The notes under the pieces are model-generated. The model searched no databases. It was not told where the DNA came from and saw nothing but the letters and a program-made list of their open reading frames with translations. A stretch of DNA of 35,769 nt from a virus: positions 1 to 35,769 of the IMG/VR virus record IMGVR_UViG_3300008113_000615; one strand, given 5' to 3'. How positions within the stretch are numbered: position 1 is the first letter of the stretch; each line of letters opens with the position of its first letter. The position numbers and the translations under genes are program-made. Positions 21,978-35,130 of this stretch are shown piece after piece.

Positions 21978-22895
21978 TCAGGCTTTCTCAAGAACGAGGG
22001 CGCTCTTGGGGTAGTAGAGAGCCAATCCGCCGATGCGAGCGTGCGCTGCAACGGAGAACTCCAGTGCTTGACGCAGGGGAGGCAGGAATTCCAGAGGTTG
22101 GGGGATGTGCAGTTGCAGCTTGTCGGGGCTGCGGTCGTACACCAGGATCCGATCCTTGGAAAGAGTGCCATTCGACTTGCCGGCCTCGAGCTCGTTGATG
22201 GGCTCGATGGCTTGGATCATCGGGTTGGTGCGCAGGAAAAACTCCATCACCGTGGTGTCGGAGGTGCTGCTACGCGGGGTGGTGGAGATGATGCGGTACA
22301 CGTTGTAGGGCACCAGCATCGTGTTGGGCATCTCCTTCATGTTGCTGTTCTGCACGAGGCGGGTGGGTGCCTCGTTGAGCAGGGCCAGCATCTCGTCGGT
22401 GGTCACACCGGCGGTGTCGAACCACTTGTCGGGTACAAGCTTGTCGACTTGGTCATTGTTGAAGAAGCCCTTCATGCCAGAGGGGGAATCGCCGAAGTAG
22501 GCGATCTCCTGGACCTTCTCCTCGTAGGCGCGGCGCACGGCGTTCGCCCGGCGTTGCTCGAGGTTCATGCCGGGCACCATGGCGGCGGCACGGGTCTCTT
22601 GGATGGTGTAGGCGAAGGAGGCACCGAGGGAGCGAACCGGGTGGGTCACTTCCTTGCGGAGCACGTCAGCGCGGGGCAGATCCTGCGCTTTATCGCCGAT
22701 CACCTTCATCGAGCCTTGCTTGTCGAAGACGCGATAGGTGTAGGAATCAGAGCCGTTCCCGACCTCGGAGGAGATGGGAATCAGGGACGAGTATTTGATG
22801 TCGGCGTACTCGACCTCAAAGGTGCGAGCAAGGATTGTCTCTAGCTCGCGGGCGAGAAAGACGCCGACCTCGTCGTTACGGATTTCGGTGGTCAT
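21978..22895 (-). CDS. Major capsid protein (DUF2184-like)
   Basis: This 305-aa protein is counted from ATG 22895, which has GGAG about 9 bases upstream; a TTG at 22916 is rejected. It starts MTTEIRNDEVGVFLARELET. Recognisable blocks are 'SLIPISSEVGNGSDSYTYRV', 'GASFAYTIQETRAAAMVPGM', 'EQRRANAVRRAYEEKVQEIA' and 'AYFGDS--GMKGFFN', which together match DUF2184-type HK97-fold capsid proteins. The late part has 'LVPYNVYRIISTT' and 'PLEFLPPLRQALEF'. It forms the icosahedral shell. It follows the cement-protein gene and precedes the connector genes. Confidence 0.9.
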   Translation of the reverse strand: MTTEIRNDEVGVFLARELETILARTFEVEYADIKYSSLIPISSEVGNGSDSYTYRVFDKQGSMKVIGDKAQDLPRADVLRKEVTHPVRSLGASFAYTIQETRAAAMVPGMNLEQRRANAVRRAYEEKVQEIAYFGDSPSGMKGFFNNDQVDKLVPDKWFDTAGVTTDEMLALLNEAPTRLVQNSNMKEMPNTMLVPYNVYRIISTTPRSSTSDTTVMEFFLRTNPMIQAIEPINELEAGKSNGTLSKDRILVYDRSPDKLQLHIPQPLEFLPPLRQALEFSVAAHARIGGLALYYPKSALVLEKA

Positions 22896-22912
22896 GGGGA
22901 GAAGCTCCGTGA

Positions 22913-23527
22913 TCAAGTGTCGGCGGAGTAGGTCATGCTGGGGATGTCAATCTCCAGCAGAACCAAGCCAGCGGCCGAGGTTTCGGACAGCCAACGTGCG
23001 CCAGCCGTGATGGCGACGGTTTTGTTGGCGACGGCGGTCTTCGTGAAGCGGCCCAGTGCAGCACCGGAAACGGTGCCCGAGTGGTCAGCTTTGAAGAAGC
23101 GCACGGCATCGCCGAGGGCGACAGCAGCGGTCGAGTACACCCAAACAACGCCCTTGGAGACCACGTTGAGGGTCTCTTTGTCGGGGTAACCCACGCGGCC
23201 GTCGGCGTAGACGGGGGTGGGGTTGGGGGTATATGCGGAACCACCGCTCACGCCCTCGAGCACCATGGAGCTGATCGCCAGACCTTGAATGTTGGTCACG
23301 CCGGTGGCGATCTCAACAGCGAGGGCGTCGTTACTGGTGGGGGTGTTGTCAGTGGCAACCAGCACGCCGTAGGGGATGGCTGCGCCGGTTTGGTTGCGGA
23401 AGCTGCGGGACACGTATGCCTGCAGATCCGCGATCATGCCCTCATGACCCACGACTTGGGTCAGGGGGTAGCTGCCTTGAGCGCCGGCCGGATTGGCGAC
23501 GGTGGTAGCGGTAAAGATGACTGCCAT
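22913..23527 (-). CDS. Capsid cement / decoration protein
   Basis: This 204-aa protein starts MAVIFTATTVANPAGAQGSY, with AAGGAG about 8 bases upstream of the ATG, a strong site. It has a short N-terminal arm followed by a beta-barrel-like domain with 'IPYGVLVATDN', 'IQGLAISSMVLE' and 'GVVWVYSTAAVALGDAVRFF'. The features match structural cement proteins (Gp24-like group) that stabilise DUF2184-type capsids. It lies between the protease and the capsid gene, as usual. The high predicted translation fits a protein made in hundreds of copies. Confidence 0.8.
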   Translation of the reverse strand: MAVIFTATTVANPAGAQGSYPLTQVVGHEGMIADLQAYVSRSFRNQTGAAIPYGVLVATDNTPTSNDALAVEIATGVTNIQGLAISSMVLEGVSGGSAYTPNPTPVYADGRVGYPDKETLNVVSKGVVWVYSTAAVALGDAVRFFKADHSGTVSGAALGRFTKTAVANKTVAITAGARWLSETSAAGLVLLEIDIPSMTYSADT

Positions 23528-23539
23528 GGAAGGAACTCC

Positions 23540-24823
23540 TTACTTGGTGGCGGTGAGGGGACGCTTCCAGGCTTCCGCTTGCTTCGACCGGTAGGTGTCC
23601 ACCGGGGAAGCGTTGCCCCGGCCGGCACCTTTCAGTGCGTCGCGGAGGGAAGTGGTGCTGTCGGCGCGGTCCTCCTTGGTTTCGGGCTCATCGCCCTCGT
23701 CCTCGGAGTCGTCGTCTTCGTCCTCATCGTCGGCATCAGCGCGGGCGGCGAGAATGCCGTCAACGACGCCTTGGATGTAACCGGGCTCAGAGTCCTCGCG
23801 GGGGGCGGAGCCGGTGAGGTTCTCGAACGCCTGGGCGTAGAGGTCCTCGTTATCGATGCCGTCGAAGTGGAAGTCTTCGGCGAAGGCGGGGGCCAGCTTC
23901 TGAAGCGTGGCGAGGCGAGCAGTGACCAGTTGGTCGAGCTCGGCGGTGTCGATGCGTGAGGACGAGCCTTGCTCGAGCTCGGTGACGCGCTCCTCGAAGG
24001 CGTCAGCGCGGCCTTCGGCCGCTTCCTTTTCATAGGCGAGGGCGTCGATCTCCTCTTGCTGAGCGTCAAGCTTGGTGGCAAGCTCATCGCGCTCGGCAGT
24101 CACAGACTTGAGCTGGCGCTCCATGTCCCGTGCGAAGGACTGGACCGCGCTAGCTGCTTCTGCGGGCAGATCGATCTCCAGGCCGTCGAGTTTGACGGTA
24201 GCCATTGCGGGAGATGCAGTTGAACAGGGCTGGAGCGCCGATTCGCTGTCGCGAATCATGTCCGGATCGAAGGAAAAGGCATCGGCCGAGTCCATGCGAT
24301 CCATGAGAAGGCGAACCTCCGGGCCAGCCCGGCCTCGGGGGACGATCGCTATATGGTTCACCCGGATGTTGCGCTGAACGCCGTCGTAGGACTCGCCCTC
24401 GGGGGTGAGACCGGGTGTGGGGTCGAAATCGACCTTGTATCCGGCAGAGACTTCGGTGGCGTCTTTGCGTTTGATCTTGTCGATGGCGTCTTGGTCGGTG
24501 ACGACCAGGGCGACTTCAACGAAACCGTCGTTGTAACGAACTTGGCTACCGGAATAACCAACTTGGAACTTTTTGGTGTTCGCTGAATCGAGAAGAACCG
24601 GCGGGTGTCCCCAAGTTGCGGGTTTCATTCCGAACGTGGAGAGCGATTCCGGAGAGCCAACCTCTTCAGGAGGGCGGTACTCACGGACCTGGGAGCCATC
24701 CACGCGCTTATAGAGCTGAGTGCCCGTGCGCGCCGCACGACACCAGACGCGGAGATACCCCTCGTCGGTGGTTTCACACCCAGTAATGGGTGAGAAGTCG
24801 TAGCGAGAAACAGATGTTTCCAT
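23540..24823 (-). CDS. Prohead protease fused to scaffold (DUF2213-like)
   Basis: This 427-aa protein has two parts. Residues 1-175 carry the DUF2213 maturation-protease pattern: 'KPATWGHPPVLL', 'FVEVALVVTDQDA', 'DATEVSAGYKVDF' and 'NIRVNHIAIVPRGRAGPEVR', with the likely catalytic His and Ser in the N-H-I-A and E-V-S-A-G-Y blocks. Residues 205-427 form an acidic coiled-coil scaffold ('RQLKSVTAERDELATKLDAQ' and on) with a run of Asp/Glu. The boundary, residues 174-195, has 'DRMDSADAF' and 'IRDSESA', related to tags in other head proteins here. Met207 (24205) could be an internal scaffold start but has no clear ribosome site. No clear Shine-Dalgarno precedes 24823. Confidence 0.88.
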   Translation of the reverse strand: METSVSRYDFSPITGCETTDEGYLRVWCRAARTGTQLYKRVDGSQVREYRPPEEVGSPESLSTFGMKPATWGHPPVLLDSANTKKFQVGYSGSQVRYNDGFVEVALVVTDQDAIDKIKRKDATEVSAGYKVDFDPTPGLTPEGESYDGVQRNIRVNHIAIVPRGRAGPEVRLLMDRMDSADAFSFDPDMIRDSESALQPCSTASPAMATVKLDGLEIDLPAEAASAVQSFARDMERQLKSVTAERDELATKLDAQQEEIDALAYEKEAAEGRADAFEERVTELEQGSSSRIDTAELDQLVTARLATLQKLAPAFAEDFHFDGIDNEDLYAQAFENLTGSAPREDSEPGYIQGVVDGILAARADADDEDEDDDSEDEGDEPETKEDRADSTTSLRDALKGAGRGNASPVDTYRSKQAEAWKRPLTATK

Positions 24824-24884: not shown

Positions 24885-25100
24885 GTGGCGATCTATCGAC
24901 AGCTCGCATTATGCGGGCGAATTAGACACCTAAGGGAAAGGGCTGGCATGACGCAGTCGGGTGTAGCAGAACGACTTGCTATCAGTCAAGCAGCTTATTG
25001 TCGCTTGGAAAGAGGGGAGATTGAATTCGCAGTATCAAAGCTCTTTGACTTGGCAGATTTATATGGCGTTGCGGCTTCGGTGCTGATGGATGGTCTTTAA
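24885..25100 (+). CDS. XRE/Cro-like HTH regulator, antisense in head operon
   Basis: This 71-aa protein is a bare helix-turn-helix domain: 'GRIRHLRERAGMTQSGVAER' then 'LAISQAAYCRLERGEIEF', with the usual M-T-Q-x-x-V-A-x-x-L first helix, I-S-Q-x-x-Y-x-x-L-E-R-G recognition helix, and closing helices ('LFDLADLYGVAASVL'). It is on the plus strand within the minus-strand head operon. Its stop TAA and the stop of the opposing 54-aa gene share the palindrome TTAA (25097-25100). The start is a GTG at 24885 with GGAGAG about 12 bases upstream; an ATT upstream is less likely. It would bind operator DNA, perhaps in the 60-base region upstream shared with the protease start. No promoter could be assigned. 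Confidence 0.85.
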   Translation: MAIYRQLALCGRIRHLRERAGMTQSGVAERLAISQAAYCRLERGEIEFAVSKLFDLADLYGVAASVLMDGL

Positions 25101-25261
25101 GCGTTGTAAACCTCGGTGTGCCACACCACAGCGCCTTCGGCAATCAAGCGTTCTCGAATGAATTGCGCTTCGTGAACAGGGCACAGGAGCGTTTGAGCGC
25201 CTGCGTTGTTCCAAAACCAGAGCCGGGTGTATGCGTGCTCAGGTGGGTGAGCGGGCTTCAT
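25097..25261 (-). CDS. Small conserved-looking protein (54 aa)
   Basis: This gene runs from ATG 25261, overlapping the previous stop as ATGA, to TAA at 25097. The product starts MKPAHPPEHAYTRLWFWNNA and ends 'GAVVWHTEVYNA'. A Cys and His ('LLCPVHEAQF') and a helical 'IRERLIAEG' segment suggest a compact alpha/beta domain. The coupling, sensible composition and lack of any other use of the interval support it as real. It is convergent with the XRE gene and shares TTAA with it. Family not recognised. Confidence 0.65.
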   Translation of the reverse strand: MKPAHPPEHAYTRLWFWNNAGAQTLLCPVHEAQFIRERLIAEGAVVWHTEVYNA

Positions 25262-25554
25262 GCGAACGACGGGGCGAAGCCTTCGGCCCAGATCGAATCG
25301 CGCTTCAGGCGGGGTTGGTCACCGTGGCCGTTGCGGGCGCGATTGGTAGAAGGATCCTCGAGGACGGTTTTTCCGGCCTCGGTATGAGAGACGTCCGGGC
25401 CCCCTTTGCCAGCGATGCCACGCTTGCGTCGCTCGCGGTTCAGCTCAGCGCGGCGCTTGCGCTCCGAGGGGCGACGGTTGATCTCGGCCTGGGCGCGTTG
25501 GCGCTTGGCCCGGGCCTCGGGGTTGGAGCGGTAGAAGGCGGCGGTGGAGGTCAC
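25258..25554 (-). CDS. Basic helical protein with C-terminal RDSIWAEGF tag
   Basis: This 98-aa protein starts MTSTAAFYRSNPEARAKRQR and continues with 'RRPSERKRRAELNRERRKRG', a long basic helix likely to bind DNA or RNA. A glycine-rich loop and 'DVSHTEAGKTVLEDP' follow. I recall small cyanophage proteins with this 'YRSNPEARAK' opening. The end is K-R-D-S-I-W-A-E-G-F plus five residues, the same tag found at the ends of two other head-region proteins here. That shared tag, next to the protease gene, suggests it is packaged in the head. It overlaps neighbours on both sides by four bases. Confidence 0.75.
   Translation of the reverse strand: MTSTAAFYRSNPEARAKRQRAQAEINRRPSERKRRAELNRERRKRGIAGKGGPDVSHTEAGKTVLEDPSTNRARNGHGDQPRLKRDSIWAEGFAPSFA
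25276..25302 (-). repeat. R-D-S-I-W-A-E-G-F tag, copy 1
   Basis: This 27-base segment encodes the RDSIWAEGF peptide near the C-terminus of the 98-aa basic protein. Its core GCCTTCGGCCCAGATCGAAT differs from copy 2 at only a few bases. Confidence 0.8.
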
Positions 25555-26624
25555 GAGCGACGAGAGGTCTTACCAGAGCACTTCCACTTCGCTCTGGAGA
25601 GGCAAAGCGGCGTGTTGCGGTCGGGGCCGGAACAATCCTTGCCGTGAGACTTCATGTCACCGAAGCTCCGGGCGCAGTAGTTGTCGCCTTTGTCTGTGCC
25701 GGGGGCGATGGTGTAACCCTTAGCTCCGTAGCGGACCTTGTTCTTGCGACCGGTTTCGGGGTTGGTGACCACCTTGGTGTATTTCTTGCCGTCCTCGGTG
25801 TCAGCCTGCGCGCGCTTCTTGGTGGGAACGCAGTTGGGCACACGGCGCTTGCCCTTGCGCTTCATGCCCACTTGCTCGTAGCCCTCCCAGCAGGCGTCAC
25901 GGCGAGTGGGCGGTTGGAGTTGCGTAGGGGCGTAGTGCTGGATGTAGTTGTCGGTCCGGCCGAAGCCCTGAGCTCGACGACGGCGTGGTTGGCCGGTGCG
26001 GGGATCAAGGGGTATGGCTTCACGTGTTCTGGGCGCAGTGCTCTGAGGTAGTTGCGCTTGGACGCCCTCGGGAAGGCGCTTCTGGTCAGGCCGTCGGTAG
26101 CCGGGCTCGTACTTCCGGCGGGCAGCTTCGACGCGGAGGCGGAGGTTACGCGCGGTGAGCTTGGTGGCCATACCGGTGGCTTCACCAGCGGCGGCCATGG
26201 TGTTGCCGATTTGAGCGACGCGGCGGATCTCCTCACGGGCTGTTTGAGCGATACGACCCTCTGCGTTCTTCACCGCCGCAGCGGTGTTTTCACGCATGCG
26301 CTGGGTTTTGGACTTGCGCGCAGGTGCCGCAGCGAGAAGAGCGCGTGGTGTCAGGCCGGGAAGACGAGGTTGCGTGGGGGATGGGCCAGAGCCGGGTAGG
26401 CGTGGCAGGCCAGACGGAGTGGGGGCAGCCCCCGCGCTCGTGGAACCCCGGCGGGACATTGCGTAGGCCCCCGCACCGAGTGCGGCGACACCGAGACCTG
26501 CGGCGATGGCCTTGCGGGTGGGGAAGGAGCCTTTCTGCCGGCAGGTCTTATCAGCGGCAATGTGGCTCTGACCGCAGGGTCGGCCTTTGGCGTCAAGGCG
26601 GAGCGTGGCGGGGGTGATGGTCAT
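25551..26624 (-). CDS. Modular head-region protein with CGxxxI module and Cys-rich tail
   Basis: This 357-aa protein starts MTITPATLRLDAKGRPCG. The first 30 residues hold the module C-G-Q-S-H-I-A-A-D-K-T-C (exact C-x10-C), followed by a Gly/Ala-rich hydrophobic segment ('AAGLGVAALGAGAYAMS'). Residues about 60-235 are Arg/Pro-rich and disordered-looking with a helical stretch. The C-terminal 110 residues carry two Cys-rich blocks: 'CWEGYEQVGMKRKGKRRVPN' then Cys, and 'RYGAKGYTIAPGTDKGDNYC' with 'DRNTPLCLSRAKWKC'. I recall these end blocks from cyanophage and marine phage proteins. The N-terminal 'TPATLR-DA' is shared with the next gene. It is probably an internal or head-associated protein; no enzyme activity is evident. 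Confidence 0.8.
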   Translation of the reverse strand: MTITPATLRLDAKGRPCGQSHIAADKTCRQKGSFPTRKAIAAGLGVAALGAGAYAMSRRGSTSAGAAPTPSGLPRLPGSGPSPTQPRLPGLTPRALLAAAPARKSKTQRMRENTAAAVKNAEGRIAQTAREEIRRVAQIGNTMAAAGEATGMATKLTARNLRLRVEAARRKYEPGYRRPDQKRLPEGVQAQLPQSTAPRTREAIPLDPRTGQPRRRRAQGFGRTDNYIQHYAPTQLQPPTRRDACWEGYEQVGMKRKGKRRVPNCVPTKKRAQADTEDGKKYTKVVTNPETGRKNKVRYGAKGYTIAPGTDKGDNYCARSFGDMKSHGKDCSGPDRNTPLCLSRAKWKCSGKTSRRS

Positions 26625-27115
26625 ACGACAAAGCCCTCGGCCCAGATCGAGTCGCGTCGTTTCGCCGGTCGGTGATGCTGGGCTTTGAATGCGGCCTCGC
26701 GTCCTTTGTTGTACAGGTTCTTGATGTCCGAGGCGTAGCCCTTTCCAAGGGTGCTCAAATTGCGACCCATCCCTCGGCCTGTCGCCGCGACATTCGCGGC
26801 ATTCTTTGCGGCGCCTACCCAGTTACCTTGAGCTACGTTCCCAATGCCGAATCCGGTTTGAAGCGTCGGTTCGACGATTTCGCGCGCGGCTTTACGCATT
26901 TCCAACCTCGGGTGGAGGAAGGCTGTTCCGACAATCGCGGCGCCGGTTAGAGCGGCGGCTCCGGCGGCGAGTTTGACGGGCTTGTTCCATGAGGCGCGGC
27001 ACTTGTGATCCTTGGGAATACAAGCGTTTCCACATGCCTTGGAACTAGGGCCACAGTTGAGCTTCTTGTTGCCGATGAAGGCATCTGTGCGCAGCGTGGC
27101 AGGAGTTAGCGCCAT
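26621..27115 (-). CDS. Head-region protein with CGxxxI module and RDSIWAEGF end
   Basis: This 164-aa protein starts MALTPATLRTDAFIGNKKLN. A CGP-type cysteine is followed by the module C-G-N-A-C-I-P-K-D-H-K-C, then a hydrophobic segment ('LAAGAAALTGAAIVGTAFL', residues about 48-66). The rest is a helical, basic, Asn/Ala-rich domain ending R-R-D-S-I-W-A-E-G-F-V-V. It has the full set of head-block features: shared N-terminus with the previous entry, Cys module, membrane-type segment and C-terminal tag. A role as internal head or ejected protein is inferred. It overlaps the next gene by four bases. Confidence 0.8.
   Translation of the reverse strand: MALTPATLRTDAFIGNKKLNCGPSSKACGNACIPKDHKCRASWNKPVKLAAGAAALTGAAIVGTAFLHPRLEMRKAAREIVEPTLQTGFGIGNVAQGNWVGAAKNAANVAATGRGMGRNLSTLGKGYASDIKNLYNKGREAAFKAQHHRPAKRRDSIWAEGFVV
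26630..26656 (-). repeat. R-D-S-I-W-A-E-G-F tag, copy 2
   Basis: This segment encodes RDSIWAEGF two residues before the stop of the 164-aa protein. It includes one of the strand-biased GCCCTCGG octamers (26633-26640). Confidence 0.8.
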
Positions 27116-27118
27116 GGT

Positions 27119-28528
27119 TCAGATCGCGAGTTGATCGAGCTCGGGGGTAAAGCCTTCGGCGTAGACGGAGTCGCGACGACCAAGGAGAGGACGGTCGTAT
27201 GGACTGGAGGCCCAACCGGTTCCGCTGGGAGTTGAGCGCATCCCAGAAGTACGCATGCGCGTGGATTGATAGGCCCCACGAGCGCGGCGCTTCATGCCGG
27301 CAACACCACCGGTCCGACTAAATCCGGCGTAAGCACCGAGGGCGGCTTCTTGTCCAACCCCGACGGCAGCATTACGGGCAGCGCTCTTGAGGAATTCCTT
27401 AGAGAGCTCGGATTTACCCATGCGGCCCGCTTTGCTCGCATTAGCTACCTGAGTGGCAGCGGCACCGAGGGTCATGTTGCGGTAACCACGGCTCACTTCA
27501 CCGAGGTTGCCACGTGCAGCGCCTTCCATTGTCTGAAGTAGCCCAGCTCCAATAGCTGCGCCACCACCTAGGCGAGCAGCAAGTTCACCAGTTGCTTTTA
27601 TCTTATTACCGATACCTTTTGTAGAAGCTTTGGTTTTATTGAAACGGTGTGCGGCCATCGGGTCGTTCATAAGAGTCTTGAATTCTTTCTTAGCTGCAGC
27701 TTTCGGGTCGACCCTCTGCGCTGTTCCGACACGGCAGGTTTCGCCCTCAGAGATGGAGCCTTTGCCGCATTTGAGATCACCGCGCTCCTCCATCGGATCA
27801 AAACCATCAGCCCAGACTGAGTCGTAAAGGCCACGCTGTCTGCGCCGCGCGTTGTACGAGTGTTTCCGTACTGCATTAACGCCGCCACCAATGGCACCAC
27901 CGAGGACTGCCCCTGATGCAGCGTTCCCGAGACCGCCGAGCGCGGCTCCTTGCACAACTCCTTTTAGCCCTTGGCCACTCATGGAACCTAATGTGGCACC
28001 CATAGCAGCACCAGAAATACCGTTGATTAAGGCTCCATATTTGGCACCTGTAGCAATGCCTCGACGGACTGAAGGACGTTTAGAAGCACTTTGTGCTTTC
28101 TGCGCTGTTCCGACATGGCATTTTTCGCCCTCAGAAATGGAGCCTTTGCCACATTTGAGGTCGAGGCGCTCAGCGGCATCGAGCCGGGCTCGGATGTAGG
28201 AGCGGCTGCGGCCCTGAATGCCGAGCTCGCAAGCGACGAGGTACTCCTGAGGGGTCAGGGCGTCGTTGCGGTCCATCTTCTTGCCGCAGCTGCCGTCGCA
28301 CTTGGCTTTGCGCTTACCACAGTTGCAGCCTTCGCCGTCCATCGGCTTTTTGCCGTACATGCCTCCATCCATGGGGGCTTTGGTCTCCTTGGCCCCCTTC
28401 GCGGAGCGCTTGCGGCTGGTTTTGCCCTTGGCAAAAGGCATCTCCTTGTCGTCCTCGCCTTCGCGGATTTCGTCGGGGCCAGCCTCCATCTCCATCGGTG
28501 GGCGCTTTTTGGAGGAGGAGGCAGGCAT
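27119..28528 (-). CDS. Modular head-region protein with two CGxxxI modules
   Basis: This 469-aa protein begins with a charged Lys/Glu-rich region and a Cys cluster ('GCNCGKRKAKCDGSCGKK', residues about 67-84). 'ALTPQEYLVACELGIQGRSR' leads to R-L-D-A and the first module C-G-K-G-S-I-S-E-G-E-K-C, then a Gly/Ala-rich hydrophobic domain of about 70 residues with many small-residue (GxxxG) patterns. A Y-D-S-V-W-A-D-G-F tag closes this part. A second module C-G-K-G-S-I-S-E-G-E-T-C and a second Gly/Ala helical domain follow, ending with R-R-D-S-V-Y-A-E-G-F. The internal duplication is visible in the DNA (see repeats). It looks like two fused cargo or membrane-active head proteins. No Shine-Dalgarno is clear. 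Confidence 0.82.
   Translation of the reverse strand: MPASSSKKRPPMEMEAGPDEIREGEDDKEMPFAKGKTSRKRSAKGAKETKAPMDGGMYGKKPMDGEGCNCGKRKAKCDGSCGKKMDRNDALTPQEYLVACELGIQGRSRSYIRARLDAAERLDLKCGKGSISEGEKCHVGTAQKAQSASKRPSVRRGIATGAKYGALINGISGAAMGATLGSMSGQGLKGVVQGAALGGLGNAASGAVLGGAIGGGVNAVRKHSYNARRRQRGLYDSVWADGFDPMEERGDLKCGKGSISEGETCRVGTAQRVDPKAAAKKEFKTLMNDPMAAHRFNKTKASTKGIGNKIKATGELAARLGGGAAIGAGLLQTMEGAARGNLGEVSRGYRNMTLGAAATQVANASKAGRMGKSELSKEFLKSAARNAAVGVGQEAALGAYAGFSRTGGVAGMKRRARGAYQSTRMRTSGMRSTPSGTGWASSPYDRPLLGRRDSVYAEGFTPELDQLAI
27149..27175 (-). repeat. R-D-S-V-Y-A-E-G-F tag, copy 3
   Basis: This segment encodes the RDSVYAEGF peptide ten residues before the C-terminus of the 469-aa protein. Confidence 0.8.
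27715..27778 (-). repeat. Direct repeat of CGxxxI module, downstream copy
   Basis: This 64-base copy encodes the second C-G-K-G-S-I module of the 469-aa protein. It matches the copy at 28099-28162 at 58 of 64 positions by eye, 384 bases apart and in the same frame. Confidence 0.85.
27800..27826 (-). repeat. Y-D-S-V-W-A-D-G-F tag, copy 4 (internal)
   Basis: This internal version of the tag lies at the junction between the two halves of the 469-aa protein, where a separate protein of this set would end. Confidence 0.75.
28099..28162 (-). repeat. Direct repeat of CGxxxI module, upstream copy
   Basis: This copy encodes the first C-G-K-G-S-I module of the 469-aa protein. It differs from the copy at 27715-27778 at six positions, so the duplication is recent or under exchange. 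Confidence 0.85.
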
Positions 28529-28566
28529 GACTACAAGGCGAAGCGCCTACAAGCGATGCGCTCAGG

Positions 28567-29448
28567 TTATCGCTGTTGTGATACAGGAGTCGGGGCGAAT
28601 TGCTCAAAAACCGCTGCGCGATTAAGGGAAACGCCTTCGGTGCGAAGGCGCTTTACGGCTGTCTCGACTTCCCGTTGGTGGCGCTGGCGCGAAGCGGCGT
28701 AATCAGGATCCATGTTGGCAATTTCGGCATCCCATGGTGCTAGATAGCAGCGACATCTAGGGTGCAAAGGAACACGGATATCTTGTCTGCGATAGATGTT
28801 GCCCGCCCTCGGAGCGCAAATGGGGCACGAGCGGTCGTCTGCAGTGGCGTAGTACATCACGAGTTCGACGCCCTGAGCTGCGTAGTACGTATTAGAGGCG
28901 TCGTTGTAGGCACGAAGCGATTCGGTGCGGATAATCGCTTCAGCCCGGGACTTCACAACGCCTAGACGAGAACGCATGTCGCGGATCATGGCGTCAGTGG
29001 GGCGACCTTCGGCAATGCCCTGGGCGACGACCTCGGCTGAGGTGGTAGCGAAGCGCTCACCATGCTTGCGAAGGTAGCCCTTGGCTTGGGCGGCAGCAGC
29101 GACGGTCGCTTCGAGAGGAATCGACACGTCGACTCGAGGGCCGGGCTTCACCTGACCGGTCAGTTCGTCGGCGACGGATACGCCATAGCGAGACGACGTA
29201 CCGGCAAGATTGCGCAGGATGCGATCGTATGAGTCGACTCGATCCGGGTTGAAGACAGGGATGAGCTGCCGAAACTCTTGGAGTAGAGACAAGTTGCGCT
29301 GTGCGGGGTCAGCCTTCCCAAGGCGCATGTGAACACGGGCGCGCCGAATCAGACGATTGAAGCTGGCGTCTAGAACCCGATTCAGAAGACGAACAGTGTC
29401 GTCCTCGGTGGTGCGGAGTAGCAGGTTGTAGCGCTCAACTAGATCCAC
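28567..29448 (-). CDS. Head morphogenesis protein (Mu F / SPP1 gp7-like)
   Basis: This 293-aa protein starts with GTG 29448 and overlaps the end of the preceding gene by 14 bases. It has the family's C-terminal signature: 'RAEAIIRTESLRAYNDAS', then 'YYATADDRSCPICAPRAG' and 'PLHPRCRCYLAPW', with Cys and His placed as a metal-binding site. The N-terminal half is helical ('LLNRVLDASFNRLIRRARVH'). Proteins of this family are minor head components near the portal and are needed for DNA-containing head assembly. Its place just after the portal and the modular protein fits. Composition is ordinary for the head block. Confidence 0.9.
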   Translation of the reverse strand: MDLVERYNLLLRTTEDDTVRLLNRVLDASFNRLIRRARVHMRLGKADPAQRNLSLLQEFRQLIPVFNPDRVDSYDRILRNLAGTSSRYGVSVADELTGQVKPGPRVDVSIPLEATVAAAAQAKGYLRKHGERFATTSAEVVAQGIAEGRPTDAMIRDMRSRLGVVKSRAEAIIRTESLRAYNDASNTYYAAQGVELVMYYATADDRSCPICAPRAGNIYRRQDIRVPLHPRCRCYLAPWDAEIANMDPDYAASRQRHQREVETAVKRLRTEGVSLNRAAVFEQFAPTPVSQQR

Positions 29449-32400
29449 GGCTCATTTCGCTGAGAGATCTTTGAATGAGCAGATAGTCAGCTATCACTTG
29501 AGCTTTAAGGGCTGGGCCGTAGGGCTTGATGCGAGACCAAAGCTCATCGGGGCTGATCAGCCCGTTGGATTCACCGGTCGCGTCGAGACGGGAGTTCTGG
29601 AAATACTGGGCGTATTGCTTAGCGAGCTCCTTGCCCGCCGGAGAACTGAATTCACGTTGACCTTCGAGGAATGTGATGAACTCGCGGGCGGTGTAGTTGC
29701 GCCCTCGGGCTTTGCCTTGATAGATAGCTTCGCGAGCTTCACGGCGTTGTCCACGGGAAACACCCACGTCCACGACGACACGGGTAGCTCTACGAAAGCG
29801 CTGGAGTTGCTCAGACTCAGGAACCCCGTAGGCGATGCCATTGGCGAGGGCTTCGCAGTTGTCCTTGGTCAGGGAGAACTTGTAGTCAGTGTTGGCAATA
29901 CGGATAGCCCGGCGGACGACGTCTTCATTGGAGAATGAGCCACCGGACTGCTTGAACTTAGGGTCAGGTGCCTTGACTAGGGGAGTCATCAAAGCTTGGG
30001 AGGTTCTAATACCGGGTTTTGTAGCGCCGATCTCTGCAACATCAGTCCAGCTGAAGCGGGACTTGTTGGTATTGGCGATGACGGCACGCACAACGCCGTC
30101 TTTTCCCTCGCCAAGGTAGATTCCAAAGTGGGCTGCGGGATCTTTCTCATGGCGAAAGTAGACCACATCACCGGGTTTTAACCCGGATTTCTTGGTGTAG
30201 TAGTACCCCATAGCTTCACTAGTATTTTTAGTGCCGGCTTCTTGCTTCATAGCCTTGACAAGATCCTTGATATTTGGGCTCGGATCAAGTGGTGACTTGG
30301 TCGGATCGCGGAGTGTTTTGAGGTTGTAGGCAACGCTGCCGGCCGTACCGATAGCCAAAGCACCTCCAACAACGGCAGCAGCAAGGGCTGCCTTGCGTTT
30401 GATATCCGTGCTTGGGGAAGCCGTTGCAGCTGCTCCTTGTCCCTTGGTACAAGCGTGCTTTTTGGGGATGTGGGAGGCGCCACAAGGCTTACCTGCGGCG
30501 TCTACTCGGTCATTTCGGATGAGATCGGCTATTTGTTCTATATGAGAGTCCTGCATCCGGGTAAAACTACCCCCGCGCTTCATCGCGAATAGGCGCTCAT
30601 CAGACGACAATACCGAGCGGAATCCGTATTTTTCGTATATAGAGCGACGCTTTTTGCCTTTGTCATCATTAGAGTACGGAATAGCGTATATAATAGAGTT
30701 ATCGGGTAATTGGTCTATCTGTTCCTGGAACATTTTTTTAACAGTGGAAGCTACACCCCGTGCATTGCGGGATGCCGATGCCGACTTTGCATCAAATTCC
30801 CCGTCTACTCGGAACTGGGTTGAATACGTCCGTGCGCCGCCAATGCTCTGTTGTGGCTTTGTTGAATAGATCAGGAGGGTCTCACCTACGGAGCCTGTAC
30901 TGAGCAAAGTCCCATCTTTCATCTTCCAGTTTGTAAAGTTGTCTTTGGTGTTAACTGATACAACTTCACCTCCTTTTGACTTTAGAGCTATGTAGGCGGT
31001 ACTTTTCTTAGCGTCTCCTATTAGTCCACGCGCAGCTTGTTGGAACTGTTTAGGTAACCGGCTAAGGCCCGCATCCACTTCAGTACGCGATAGATTCTTG
31101 ATAACACGCTTGCTAATTTCTGGTACTACTGTCTCCCTATTTTTGTAAGCGAGTGCTCCTACTGCAGTTAATGCAGTACCTACACCGATGGCGGCCGCAA
31201 TGGCCATTCGATTGCGGATCTTCTTATCGCCCTCGGGGGGAGATGCCTTGGTCGGAGCGCCTTGGCCTTTCCGGCATTCATGCGCCTTCGGGATGTGCGA
31301 GGCGCCGCAGGGCTTTCCCAGGCGCTTGCCCTCCTGAAAGTCGGCGCGGGCAGCGAGGTAGGTGGCAGTGCGGACGAGCTCGGGGCGCGAGTCGCCTCGT
31401 TGCTCTATCTCACGCTTAGCGGCACGATAAGCAGCTTCCAGGCTCATGCCTTCGTTGCCTGCACGAGCTCGGATCTCACGAGCTAGCGAAGAGAGTGCGG
31501 CCTGACGTCGAAGGCCGCTGCGGGGCACACGCCCGGTTGAGGTCGAAGTAGGCACTCCTGCGGTTGAAGCTGTCCGAACCCGCGTGACACCTGAGAAGCC
31601 GTGCTCGCTTTGGAGAACTCGGAATGCTTCGGTGGGTTGAGTGATTGGACGCCCAGCGAGTTCCGAAGCCGCGTTCAGAGCCACACGATCTGTGATCGCG
31701 AAGGTAGGGCGTCTGTTTTTGTCGGAGCCGGCAAGAAGATTGGCGAAATAGGCAGAACGCACGAGTTCGGAATGTGCCTCCCCTGCGATCTGACTACGAG
31801 GGAGCCCCAGTCCTCTGGCCATTTCACCAACCCGCACTCGGTCGAGAGAGGCCAGCAGGGTCTGGGTGCCCTCCCGTAGGGAAGGGGCTATTTTGCGCTC
31901 GGTACTAAGAGAAGCGACTCCAGGTATGCTTGTAACTTTACTACCAACTTCATCGTATAGCTTACTAAAGCCATAAAGCGACTCCGTATATATCTCAGAG
32001 GCGCGTCCAGACAGTGACTTGCCACTCATTAAGTTAACGACATGACTATCAGCGCTATCCCTTAGGGTTTTGGAGACGGTACCTGATCCTGTAATACCTG
32101 CGTTGTTGTTGAGCTTCCCCAAGTATGTGTTGATGGCATCAGGGTGAATAACTTCTTCTTTGTTTACCTTCGCTGTCTTAAGTCCTAGCTGTTTCGCGTA
32201 AGCAACATGCATTTCGCGCTCTTCTATGAGTTTATTTGCAAGTGCATCTTTGATTGATGTCGCACTTGCGTTGCTGCCTCCCTTTTCAATTGGTAAATTG
32301 TAGTGCTTAATAAGAAAGTCTTCGGAAGCTGGGCGAGCAAACACACTGATTTCTGCTTTTGTCACTTTCCCACTTGTCAGTTTTGTGACATAAGAATCGA

Positions 32401-33244
32401 GATCGGGAGCACGTTTTTTGGCCGTCCAGAAGGCTTGTTGATGCTGCTCGTTCCATGCGTATACATTTGTTGAACCTGAAGCGCGAGCTGCTTTATTTAC
32501 AGCGTTTGTTGCGTGACTAAGATTGCTTTCGCCTGAGCGATCTGTATCGCTGACGCCTAAGTTTTGAAGATGACGCAGGGTCTCTGGCGAATTGCTATCA
32601 AGTCCTCCGATTAAACCGTCCGGTCCCGCCTGAGGCACACGGGCGGAACGAGTGACGGCCTCGGTGATCGAACTGAAGGCGCCTACGCGGGTACGAGCTC
32701 GTTGAGCTCCTAGCAGTGGAGTGGCATCAAGGACACGGCTGACACCAGTGTGTACAGACTCATTGATCTGTTTACCTAGTCCGTTTCGATAGCCGAATGT
32801 ATCTTTGTTCATCAGCAGGGCATGAATGCCCAGGCCACCGGTTATTACGGCAAGGCCCATGCCAATGGCTGCGGTGCGATTCTCGAGCTTCTTCTTCAGC
32901 TCTGCTTTTTGCTGAATGTTGCCCGGGGTGATTTTGACGGCACCACGAATGATCGCAGCCTTACCGCCTTCGACGTCGGAGAAGCTGCCTTTTACAATTC
33001 CTTTTCCGATACGGCCAAAGCCCCGTTGGATGTTGGCAAGACCACCTAGAGGGTCAGTTTTGACCGCTCTCAGGTGGGGATCAGTGCCTTGGCCTTTAAG
33101 ACGGCAATCCCAAGTCGGGGGTATGCAACGATTCCCACAACGAATGTTGGGAGGATTGCATTGGACATTACGGCTCGTCTTACGTACATCAAGACGCTCC
33201 CGAGCTGCTAGATAAGCCGCTGTCCGAATGGTGGTGTTATCCAT
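29435..33244 (-). CDS. 1269-aa modular head protein: three CGxxxI modules, GNAT-like and LRAT-like domains
   Basis: Start ATG 33244 overlaps the portal stop (TGATG); 33259 is rejected. Three units are visible. Unit 1: 'TTIRTAAYLAARERLD', module Cys36-Cys47, a hydrophobic helix near 135-155, and a helical domain to about 620. Unit 2: 'RTATYLAAR' again near 625, module Cys646-Cys657, hydrophobic helix near 680-700, and a domain with 'ARGVASTVKKMF' (Arg829) and 'RRSIYEKYGFR' (Tyr870), like GNAT motifs A and B. Unit 3: R-V-D-A near 915, module Cys921-Cys932, hydrophobic helix near 945-970, and an LRAT / permuted NlpC-P60-like domain: 'LKPGDVVYFRHEKD', 'HFGIYLGEG' (His1039) and 'DNCEALANGIAYGVPESEQ' (Cys1130). 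It is placed like an internal head or ejection protein. Confidence 0.83.
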   Translation of the reverse strand: MDNTTIRTAAYLAARERLDVRKTSRNVQCNPPNIRCGNRCIPPTWDCRLKGQGTDPHLRAVKTDPLGGLANIQRGFGRIGKGIVKGSFSDVEGGKAAIIRGAVKITPGNIQQKAELKKKLENRTAAIGMGLAVITGGLGIHALLMNKDTFGYRNGLGKQINESVHTGVSRVLDATPLLGAQRARTRVGAFSSITEAVTRSARVPQAGPDGLIGGLDSNSPETLRHLQNLGVSDTDRSGESNLSHATNAVNKAARASGSTNVYAWNEQHQQAFWTAKKRAPDLDSYVTKLTSGKVTKAEISVFARPASEDFLIKHYNLPIEKGGSNASATSIKDALANKLIEEREMHVAYAKQLGLKTAKVNKEEVIHPDAINTYLGKLNNNAGITGSGTVSKTLRDSADSHVVNLMSGKSLSGRASEIYTESLYGFSKLYDEVGSKVTSIPGVASLSTERKIAPSLREGTQTLLASLDRVRVGEMARGLGLPRSQIAGEAHSELVRSAYFANLLAGSDKNRRPTFAITDRVALNAASELAGRPITQPTEAFRVLQSEHGFSGVTRVRTASTAGVPTSTSTGRVPRSGLRRQAALSSLAREIRARAGNEGMSLEAAYRAAKREIEQRGDSRPELVRTATYLAARADFQEGKRLGKPCGASHIPKAHECRKGQGAPTKASPPEGDKKIRNRMAIAAAIGVGTALTAVGALAYKNRETVVPEISKRVIKNLSRTEVDAGLSRLPKQFQQAARGLIGDAKKSTAYIALKSKGGEVVSVNTKDNFTNWKMKDGTLLSTGSVGETLLIYSTKPQQSIGGARTYSTQFRVDGEFDAKSASASRNARGVASTVKKMFQEQIDQLPDNSIIYAIPYSNDDKGKKRRSIYEKYGFRSVLSSDERLFAMKRGGSFTRMQDSHIEQIADLIRNDRVDAAGKPCGASHIPKKHACTKGQGAAATASPSTDIKRKAALAAAVVGGALAIGTAGSVAYNLKTLRDPTKSPLDPSPNIKDLVKAMKQEAGTKNTSEAMGYYYTKKSGLKPGDVVYFRHEKDPAAHFGIYLGEGKDGVVRAVIANTNKSRFSWTDVAEIGATKPGIRTSQALMTPLVKAPDPKFKQSGGSFSNEDVVRRAIRIANTDYKFSLTKDNCEALANGIAYGVPESEQLQRFRRATRVVVDVGVSRGQRREAREAIYQGKARGRNYTAREFITFLEGQREFSSPAGKELAKQYAQYFQNSRLDATGESNGLISPDELWSRIKPYGPALKAQVIADYLLIQRSLSEMSRGSS

Positions 33245-35130
33245 CAGTACTGCTCCCAACCAGCGCGAAGGGCTTCAGCTTCGCCCTCGGATACAGGGGA
33301 CAGCCCAGCTACATTCTGCCGTGGGTAGAAAGCGCTGATCGCTCGTTTAGCGCTGTGCAGTGTGCGGAAGCCAATGGCATATGGCCCCTCGATCAGTTGG
33401 CCTTGGTGGTCGAACCGTGCTCGGTACAGCTTGCGTCCGTGAGCACGTTGTGGACCTACGACAAATAAAGCAGCGTTATCGGCTGCGTCAACGCGCTGGC
33501 CGTCAGGTGCTACTAAGTAGCCGATACTTACGCTGTCCTTACGATGCGTTTCTTTGATGTGATAACCGTGAGCGTGGATGATCTCTACAGAGTCTGTTTT
33601 CGCGGTCTTATCTGGTTGCGGTTCTTCAGTGCTCTCTTCTTCCTGCTCCTCTTCCTCTGGCTGCGCTCCCTCGGCCTCGGGCGGATTGGTCATCGCTTCG
33701 GCCTGGGCTTGGTATCCCATCATTTGGCTTTGGAACGAAGCGTCAGCTTGAGCAATGAGCTGCTCGGTGACGGCTCCGTTCAGAGTCGTTTCGATGCTGT
33801 ACTCGGTGCCGCCGAAGCGGGCTTCGCGCACCTCGAGAGCGTTCAGCACACCGAGGTTGAGGTACTGAGCGTCGACCTGCGCGATTTGGAGGCGTAAGGC
33901 CGCCTTTTCGCTGTCTGTCTCGGTGAAGATGCTCGGGAACTCAACGCTCCACTTCTGAGGGGGCCGCCCTCGGGTTGGTCCTTCGCGCGAGGCAAGGATG
34001 TAGGTGAAGACTTCGGTCACCGCCGTGCGGCAGTAGAGCTCTTGCCACTGCTCGACGAGGGTTGCCCAGACGCGCTCCTCGAAGCGCCCCTCTTTGCCCA
34101 GGCCACCGGGGGAGTCGCCCATCAGGATCGAGGCGGGCCAACCGGTGGCAGCCTGCAGATCCTTGATGAAGGGGTCGGTCGCTGAGGCGATGTTGCTGAG
34201 TGCGCGGTTGAGGAAGCTCAGTTCCTCTTCGGTGTCCACCACCATCCCGCCATAGACCGAGCGGCTGAGGTTGTTGGCCTCGAGGCGCTTGCGCAGATCG
34301 CTCTCGTTTCCGGAAGCAATGCGGTTGAAAAGACCGGGGATCTTGTGGACGAACAGGTCCGAGTCAGTCGTCATTGACTCGAGGCCCGACAGCGCGGTTT
34401 CGTAGCGCTTGTACGCCTCCCAGACGAGTTGGAGCACCGGCAGGCCCCACCCTGTGTTGCGCACTCGGACGTTCCAGGGCAGGTAAAGCCCGTCGAAGCG
34501 CGCTACGCGGGATGAGTGTATGCGCACATTGACATACTGCCCTTGCTGCTCGGGCGTGAGTCGCTGCGCGGTGGTGATCCGGTAGTGCGAGGGCTTGGTG
34601 TAGTCCGTGATCGAGAAGTCTTCCGGAATCAGCTCCCAGCGGGAGAGGGGGACATAGCCCCGGACAGCGCGTATCCGCGCAGGGTCGACAGGCTCCTCCG
34701 GAGGGAGGCCGTCATCGATCAGGAGCACCAGGCCAGCACCGCCGTAGAGGCGCTGAAGCTTGACGACCTCGGCAAAGGCGTGGTGGAACTGTGTGGCTTT
34801 GAGGTACTCCTCGAAGTCGGCGATCAGGTCGTTGGCGTTGCTCTGTTCGTCACCGCCAAGCTTGATCGTGGTTCGGTGGCGCAGGATCTCGTCAGAGATG
34901 GCATCGACGTAGCGCCTGGGGATGCCATGGGCGTAGAGGGCTTCGAGTTCGCCCTCGCTGAGGATTGCTTTAGCGCCTACAGAAGTAGCAACCGTTTTGT
35001 CCTTGGTTGTTAAACCCATGCCAGACAATACGTTTACTAACGCACCATCCTTCCGGAAATTATCAGCATTCGTGTCCACGGTCGCCGCAGGGCTGATTGA
35101 TATGCGAAGATTATCGCTGAACCTCGACAC
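33244..35130 (-). CDS. Portal protein (DUF1073-like) with C-terminal extension
   Basis: This 628-aa protein has the DUF1073 portal pattern: 'AKAILSEGELEALYAHGIPR', 'RYVDAISDEILRHRTTI', 'QRLYGGAGLVLLIDDG', 'YVPLSRWELIPEDFS', 'HSSRVARFDGLYLPW', and 'WPASILMGDSPGGLGKEGRF'. It forms the dodecameric gate for DNA. After residue 470 the chain becomes acidic, and then a 130-residue extension carries K-T-D-S (513), R-K-D-S (532) and R-V-D-A (548), similar to boundary peptides in the neighbouring modular proteins, plus a small beta domain ('KLYRARFDHQGQLIEGPYAI'). The start is GTG 35130; no Shine-Dalgarno is visible, so the exact start is uncertain. Confidence 0.9.
   Translation of the reverse strand: MSRFSDNLRISISPAATVDTNADNFRKDGALVNVLSGMGLTTKDKTVATSVGAKAILSEGELEALYAHGIPRRYVDAISDEILRHRTTIKLGGDEQSNANDLIADFEEYLKATQFHHAFAEVVKLQRLYGGAGLVLLIDDGLPPEEPVDPARIRAVRGYVPLSRWELIPEDFSITDYTKPSHYRITTAQRLTPEQQGQYVNVRIHSSRVARFDGLYLPWNVRVRNTGWGLPVLQLVWEAYKRYETALSGLESMTTDSDLFVHKIPGLFNRIASGNESDLRKRLEANNLSRSVYGGMVVDTEEELSFLNRALSNIASATDPFIKDLQAATGWPASILMGDSPGGLGKEGRFEERVWATLVEQWQELYCRTAVTEVFTYILASREGPTRGRPPQKWSVEFPSIFTETDSEKAALRLQIAQVDAQYLNLGVLNALEVREARFGGTEYSIETTLNGAVTEQLIAQADASFQSQMMGYQAQAEAMTNPPEAEGAQPEEEEQEEESTEEPQPDKTAKTDSVEIIHAHGYHIKETHRKDSVSIGYLVAPDGQRVDAADNAALFVVGPQRAHGRKLYRARFDHQGQLIEGPYAIGFRTLHSAKRAISAFYPRQNVAGLSPVSEGEAEALRAGWEQY

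Follow-up and report, generated by a model that had tools for sequence, protein, structure and literature searches.

To our knowledge, the way in which a phage head chooses the proteins that travel with its DNA is understood in few phage models. The internal proteins and Alt of T4 are unrelated packaged proteins that share an N-terminal capsid-targeting propeptide; the head protease is phage-encoded, and the T4 cleavage motif is L-x-E. In the case of the MuF-linked effectors, head proteins adjacent to the portal are believed to deliver enzymatic domains. Phages and conjugative elements also encode polyvalent proteins (Iyer et al., 2017, PMC5512222); these are multi-domain chains of different effector enzymes, encoded among the late genes of portal-terminase phages, and their packaging and injection have been proposed. 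In SPN3US, gp245 cuts at A-x-E with Ser preferred at P1´, and this one motif recurs in the portal, the capsid, the protease tail and the ejected proteins (PMC10052503). Here we analyze the linear virus record IMGVR_UViG_3300008113_000615 over its full 35,769 bases (the window), in which four head-operon proteins (P0001, P0002, P0003 and P0005) carry copies of a cysteine module, CGx3Ix5C. On balance, these proteins are probably packaged effector cassettes, some of them made as polyproteins; the head protease would trim them, and they would leave the head together with the DNA.

The cysteine module, leader and tag

A six-frame scan of the whole window revealed seven copies of CGx3Ix5C, all within the four proteins named in the original prediction and distributed 1, 1, 2 and 3 among them, as it had counted. 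In 2000 shuffles of the four proteins, no copy arose in 1998 and one copy arose in 2. The head operon and all named genes lie on the minus strand, and the module set is confined between the portal and protease genes, again as predicted. According to the translations, P0001 (25551–26624; 357 residues) and P0002 (26621–27115; 164 residues) are single units, P0003 (27119–28528; 469 residues) contains two fused units, and P0005 (29435–33244; 1269 residues) contains three. The modules are located at 26541–26576 in P0001 (CGQSHIAADKTC), at 26999–27034 in P0002 (CGNACIPKDHKC), at 28118–28153 (CGKGSISEGEKC) and 27734–27769 (CGKGSISEGETC) in P0003, and at 33104–33160 (CNPPNIRCGNRCIPPTWDC; CGx3Ix5C core 33104–33139), 31274–31309 (CGASHIPKAHEC) and 30449–30484 (CGASHIPKKHAC) in P0005. 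Two of the seven, in P0002 and P0005 unit 1, are four-Cys variants; Cys29, Cys36, Cys40 and Cys47 of the latter are invariant in 29 aligned sequences. The peptide RTA[AT]YLAAR is present twice in P0005 (33206–33226 and 31352–31372), which agrees with the recurrence described earlier.

Relatives were collected by scans of viral contigs, 15 via P0005 and then, with only the module as query, 43 and 10 loci that include some repeats. The module scans of the collection used two narrow alignments, a broader alignment of 15 sequences being too divergent. The relatives span about 55 viral contigs, with roughly 200 distinct copies of the module, and provide 256 units after removal of duplicates, 247 of which have a cargo of at least 60 residues. 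The units follow a common plan, in which a short leader with R-x-D is followed by the Cys module, a Gly/Ala-rich hydrophobic segment and the cargo, and the family consensus reads RxD, a short linker and then K-x-CGxxxIPKxxxC. Both portal and protease genes are present in 16 relatives, and the module open reading frames (ORFs) lie between them in all 16. The statement in the original prediction that cyanophages have similar modules is confirmed for an isolate, Aphanizomenon phage vB_AphaS-CL131 (MG209611), which has the module in gp044 and gp047 and five copies in gp048. With P0003 and P0005 as queries, tblastn gave no match among annotated phages. In cellular genomes, the two-Cys form was not found, and the four-Cys form occurs on a Nostoc linckia contig, where one protein has four modules with the spacing seen in the viral contig L063; in one further match of the four-Cys search, in a metagenome-assembled genome, no module was found. 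Small proteins of three loci (L067, L070 and L071) have a C-terminal CCKxCxxGKACGDxCIxxxxxC...GCAC that resembles the module core. A module query also weakly matched Gordonia phage UBSmoodge (L018, 5999–10044) at a protein beside a gene that is annotated as an ADP-ribosyltransferase; the matched region lacks CGx3Ix5C, and the match is probably due to chance.

Two elements were absent from the original prediction, namely the recurrent R-x-D ahead of each module and a repeated C-terminal tag, [RK][RL]DS[IV][WY]A[ED]GF, which is the second element common to the units. Each of the 36 tags in the first set of loci is located either 2–9 residues from a C-terminus or 10–16 residues before an internal module. 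An independent scan with a DNA pattern of the tag returned mostly module-bearing stretches; 29 of its 34 non-redundant tags are terminal or pre-module, and the remaining five lie in module-bearing ORFs (three) and module-free stretches (two). Within the window, P0003 has an internal tag, DSVWADGF (27800–27823), 10 residues before its second module and a C-terminal tag, RRDSVYAEGF (27149–27172), and P0002 has the C-terminal tag RRDSIWAEGF (26630–26653). A C-terminal tag (25276–25299) is also present in a module-free 98-residue protein (phrog_6437; 25258–25554). The leaders take two forms, M[TA]LTP[AST][TS][LIV]RxD and RTAxYLAxR..RxD, both found on otherwise unrelated head proteins.

A candidate cutting motif of the head protease

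R-x-D occurs within 30 residues upstream of 194 of the 206 modules, against a background of 10.6%. Compared with shuffles, R-x-D-[AS] is enriched 10.0-fold in the protease (109 versus 10.9), 4.0-fold in the module ORFs (254 versus 63.6) and 3.3-fold in the portal (43 versus 13.0), ratios that overstate the independent evidence because the shuffle tests ignore relatedness. It is not enriched in the cement protein (0.94-fold) or in 279 unlabelled ORFs (0.96-fold), and none was observed in the tape measure. Within the module ORFs, its density per 1000 residues is 20 ahead of the modules, 10 in the last 25 residues, 1.4 elsewhere and 0 inside the module. In the protease gene, the motif appears at the junction of protease and scaffold and then throughout the scaffold half to the C-terminus. 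The closest isolate by capsid protein (55% identical), Synechococcus phage S-CBS4, has no module in its head region; R-x-D is kept at the N-terminus of its capsid protein, and its protease contains R-x-D-[AS]. The unit joints of P0005 contain two candidate cleavage sites, R-G-D-S between units 1 and 2 (31388–31399) and R-V-D-A between units 2 and 3 (30497–30508).

Unit joints, the protease and the portal are enriched in R-x-D-[AS], but the tape measure, cement and other ORFs are not, and the proteins that bear the motif are the kinds that the SPN3US prohead protease cuts (PMC10052503); because of this distribution, it is probably the cutting site of the maturation protease, with cleavage after the Asp. 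Both the tag and R-x-D-[AS] suggest cleavage by the head protease, which would separate the units and trim them. Within the literature library covered, a full-text search found no paper that treats DUF2213, the family of this protease, together with protease and capsid.

The cassettes might instead be packaged with R-x-D serving as part of the module fold or as a docking motif, so that fused units remain fused. R-x-D is closely tied to the module, often standing at a constant distance of 5 or 8 residues from the first Cys, and before modules it is often followed by L or K; both points fit this explanation. However, R-x-D-[AS] is also enriched in the module-free protease/scaffold and portal genes and at the C-terminal tags, and it is not enriched in the tape measure, cement and other ORFs; we regard this explanation as unlikely.

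Hydrophobic segments and exchangeable cargo

A hydrophobic 19-mer (at least 1.3) is found within 100 residues after the module in 69% of 202 units, and in 87% at a threshold of 1.0, compared with 0% and 1%, respectively, of random 100-residue windows drawn from the rest of the cargo (n = 150). The segments of P0005 lie at 32810–32866 (unit 1; Kyte-Doolittle 1.81), 31151–31207 (unit 2; 1.94) and 30329–30385 (unit 3; 1.80). The predicted succession of module, hydrophobic segment and unrelated cargo is supported by these data.

Units are exchanged, fused and split at module boundaries, and one cargo can occur alone, fused or in differing slots. By single linkage, the cargo forms 40 clusters, a rough figure in which some unlike units are merged. 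P0005 carries both an LRAT and a GNAT-like unit. LRAT units 83–89% identical to its unit 3 occupy slot 2 in four loci (L005, L006, L009 and L051), and GNAT-like units 80–81% identical to its unit 2 occupy the same slot in two others (L003 and L004), while unit 1 of these proteins with swapped second slots is just 33–43% identical. The units of P0005 stand separately or otherwise combined in relatives, which upholds the view of this protein as fused units, and the second cargo of P0003 stands alone in other phages. The modular character of the set is likewise supported.

Several cargo domains read as enzymes, in line with the proposal that cargo acts as effector. The cargo of P0005 unit 2 (30500–31126) has a putative GNAT-like fold in an AlphaFold2 model whose C-terminal part is confident; a Foldseek search against the PDB gave mostly GNAT acetyltransferases as top matches (best E = 2.8e-3), with low TM-scores against the full model. 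Unit 3 contains an LRAT/NlpC-P60 papain-like domain (29822–30181; PF04970, E = 2.5e-7, 31.5 bits, over the cut-off of 24.3), whose catalytic His (AHFGIYLG) and Cys (DNCE) are invariant in 12 aligned sequences. Unit 1 is modelled as helical, and a structural search of its fold gave no match. Cargo of relatives includes Kdo/ABC1-type kinases, esterase/lipase-like domains, DnaJ and DUF5872; a few relatives show weak matches, under the cut-off, to zincin families (M3 and ATLF). The cargo of CL131 gp044 (L017, MG209611) contains HNHP..SPADV, which recalls JAMM-type peptidases, and it has no Pfam match over the cut-off. The C-terminal third of P0001 contains CWEGYEQVGMKxK..VPNCVP and then RYGAKGYTIAPGTDKGD..YCARSFGDM; this stretch matches proteins without assigned function in T4-like cyanophages (S-TIM5 and ACG-2014) and in one Roseobacter phage.

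Most modules directly precede the hydrophobic segment, as would be expected if module and Gly-rich hydrophobic helix formed an envelope channel for ejection, like the T7 core proteins, with C-terminal domains that are structural or wall-opening; the LRAT/NlpC-P60 and lipase-like cargo could open envelopes. Yet kinases, a GNAT-like fold and DnaJ are likewise among the cargo, which differs between close relatives, and the head region of S-CBS4 lacks the module despite a similar capsid protein. Because the cargo is so varied and the S-CBS4 head region is module-free, the module appears to be an accessory rather than part of a core conduit, and we consider such a channel rather improbable.

Nature of the cysteine module

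The original prediction left open a disulphide or a metal knuckle. The metal option is disfavored, since two Cys alone are invariant across the family, with no further conserved ligand; for the same reason, the module probably forms a disulphide in the virion, as judged from conservation. A sequence search of the module against the PDB gave no match. A likeness of CIPPxWDC to LDL-receptor class A repeats was dropped, there being no Pfam match and the second half being missing. That the set consists of zinc- or nucleic-acid-binding knuckle proteins organizing the packaged DNA is very improbable: several set proteins look basic and P0005 modules 2 and 3 contain C-x3-H-x4-H-x-C, but the His residues are not conserved across the family, the CCHC zinc-knuckle spacing C-x2-C-x4-H-x4-C is absent, and the hydrophobic segment is left unexplained.

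A proposed loading system

The sequences show the unit plan, how widely it is spread and where in the genomes it lies; they also show that cargo is swapped at module boundaries and that R-x-D-[AS] is concentrated at unit joints and in the protease/scaffold and portal genes. On these features we base the preferred reading, that of packaged effector cassettes, in which packaging, cutting and delivery are inferred. It retains from the original prediction the modular set of internal head proteins, with a delivery unit followed by cargo, and gives up the metal knuckle.

Several points weigh against it, in addition to the relatedness that the shuffle tests ignore. None of the proteins of this phage has been observed in virions. 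R-x-D-[AS] is not significantly enriched in the capsid protein (5 versus 2.6), and R-x-D at the capsid N-terminus is mostly followed by E or N. One large module subtype has R-x-D-L, which breaks the A/S rule, and one R-K-D-A site lies within the folded protease domain, where it is probably uncut. CL131-type phages hold their modules between the capsid and tape-measure genes, and those of L066 sit ahead of a portal-like match. The module is poorly resolved in both AlphaFold2 models, and several cargo clusters have no recognized domain.

A plug-in loading system can be proposed more tentatively, at somewhat less than even odds: cargo placed between the module with its hydrophobic segment and the tag would be loaded into the head, the DUF2213 protease would free it from a polyprotein at R-x-D-[AS], ejection would follow, and the cassettes would be exchanged among phages. 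On the preferred reading, leaders and tags would bring the precursors into the prohead. The protease would then cleave after R-x-D, separating fused units and trimming tags, and the freed proteins would remain with the DNA and enter the host on ejection. Packaging or membrane passage may be what the Cys module and hydrophobic segment serve, after which the cargo enzymes would act on the host.

If this is true, module and tag mark packaged proteins in many uncultured phages, so that effectors could be read from sequence. It would also bring into view a large set of host-acting enzymes that have so far escaped study, among them kinases, acyltransferase-like proteins and esterases. For DUF2213 head proteases, the analysis offers a proposed cutting motif that can be tested.

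Neighboring genes

Towards its C-terminus, the portal protein (33244–35130; PF06381) has R/K-x-D-[SA] sites. A MuF-like minor head protein (28567–29448; PF04233, E = 1.1e-14) is encoded inside the block and is without the module. The DUF2213 head maturation protease (23540–24823; PF09979, E = 3e-41; phrog_530) has a scaffold-like C-terminal half, in which R-x-D-[AS] recurs, and is followed by the cement protein (22913–23527) and the capsid protein (21978–22916). On the plus strand, antisense to the operon and directly upstream of the protease gene, lies an XRE-type helix-turn-helix ORF of 71 residues (24885–25100), which is possibly a late-gene regulator. Many loci, and CL131 with gp037, have such an ORF in the same position and orientation, and a repressor is annotated at this place in S-CBS4. 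The family occurs in a group of tailed phages whose hosts are most likely cyanobacteria, an argument from the relatives (Synechococcus, Aphanizomenon and Nostoc) and not from the window itself.

Comparison with known systems

Among isolates, CL131 gp044, gp047 and gp048 share CGx3Ix5C with the window, mostly in the four-Cys form; the five modules of gp048 go with esterase/lipase-like cargo, and all three genes are annotated merely as hypothetical. The CL131 virion was studied by LC-MS/MS with a search restricted to fully tryptic peptides (PMC6293099). No earlier description of the Cys module, tag and cutting motif together was found in the literature, Pfam or PHROGs.

As in MuF-linked effectors, enzymatic domains are borne by probable head proteins near the portal, but MuF stands alone here and the cargo is attached to the Cys module. 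The short N-terminal leader common to unrelated head proteins, together with a phage head protease, resembles the T4 propeptides, except that the leaders contain R-x-D and no L-x-E and that a C-terminal tag, a Cys module, a hydrophobic segment and long fused chains are also present. One short motif recurs across head proteins, as among the ejection proteins of SPN3US and phiKZ (PMC10052503), although the motif is another one, the proteins are unrelated, and cleavage was measured there and is deduced here. Like polyvalent proteins, P0005 joins a GNAT-like fold and an LRAT/NlpC-P60 domain in one chain, and the set is encoded amid virion genes (portal, MuF, protease and capsid). Unlike in polyvalent proteins, the Cys module and hydrophobic segment head every unit, the C-terminal tag ends many, and most units are single-cargo and separable; the main text of PMC5512222 has no mention of cysteine or cyanophage. 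As for the LPD domains, the relative L066 matches LPD1 below the cut-off and the window has none. Taken together, the set stands close to the polyvalent proteins (PMC5512222) and to the internal proteins of T4 and SPN3US.

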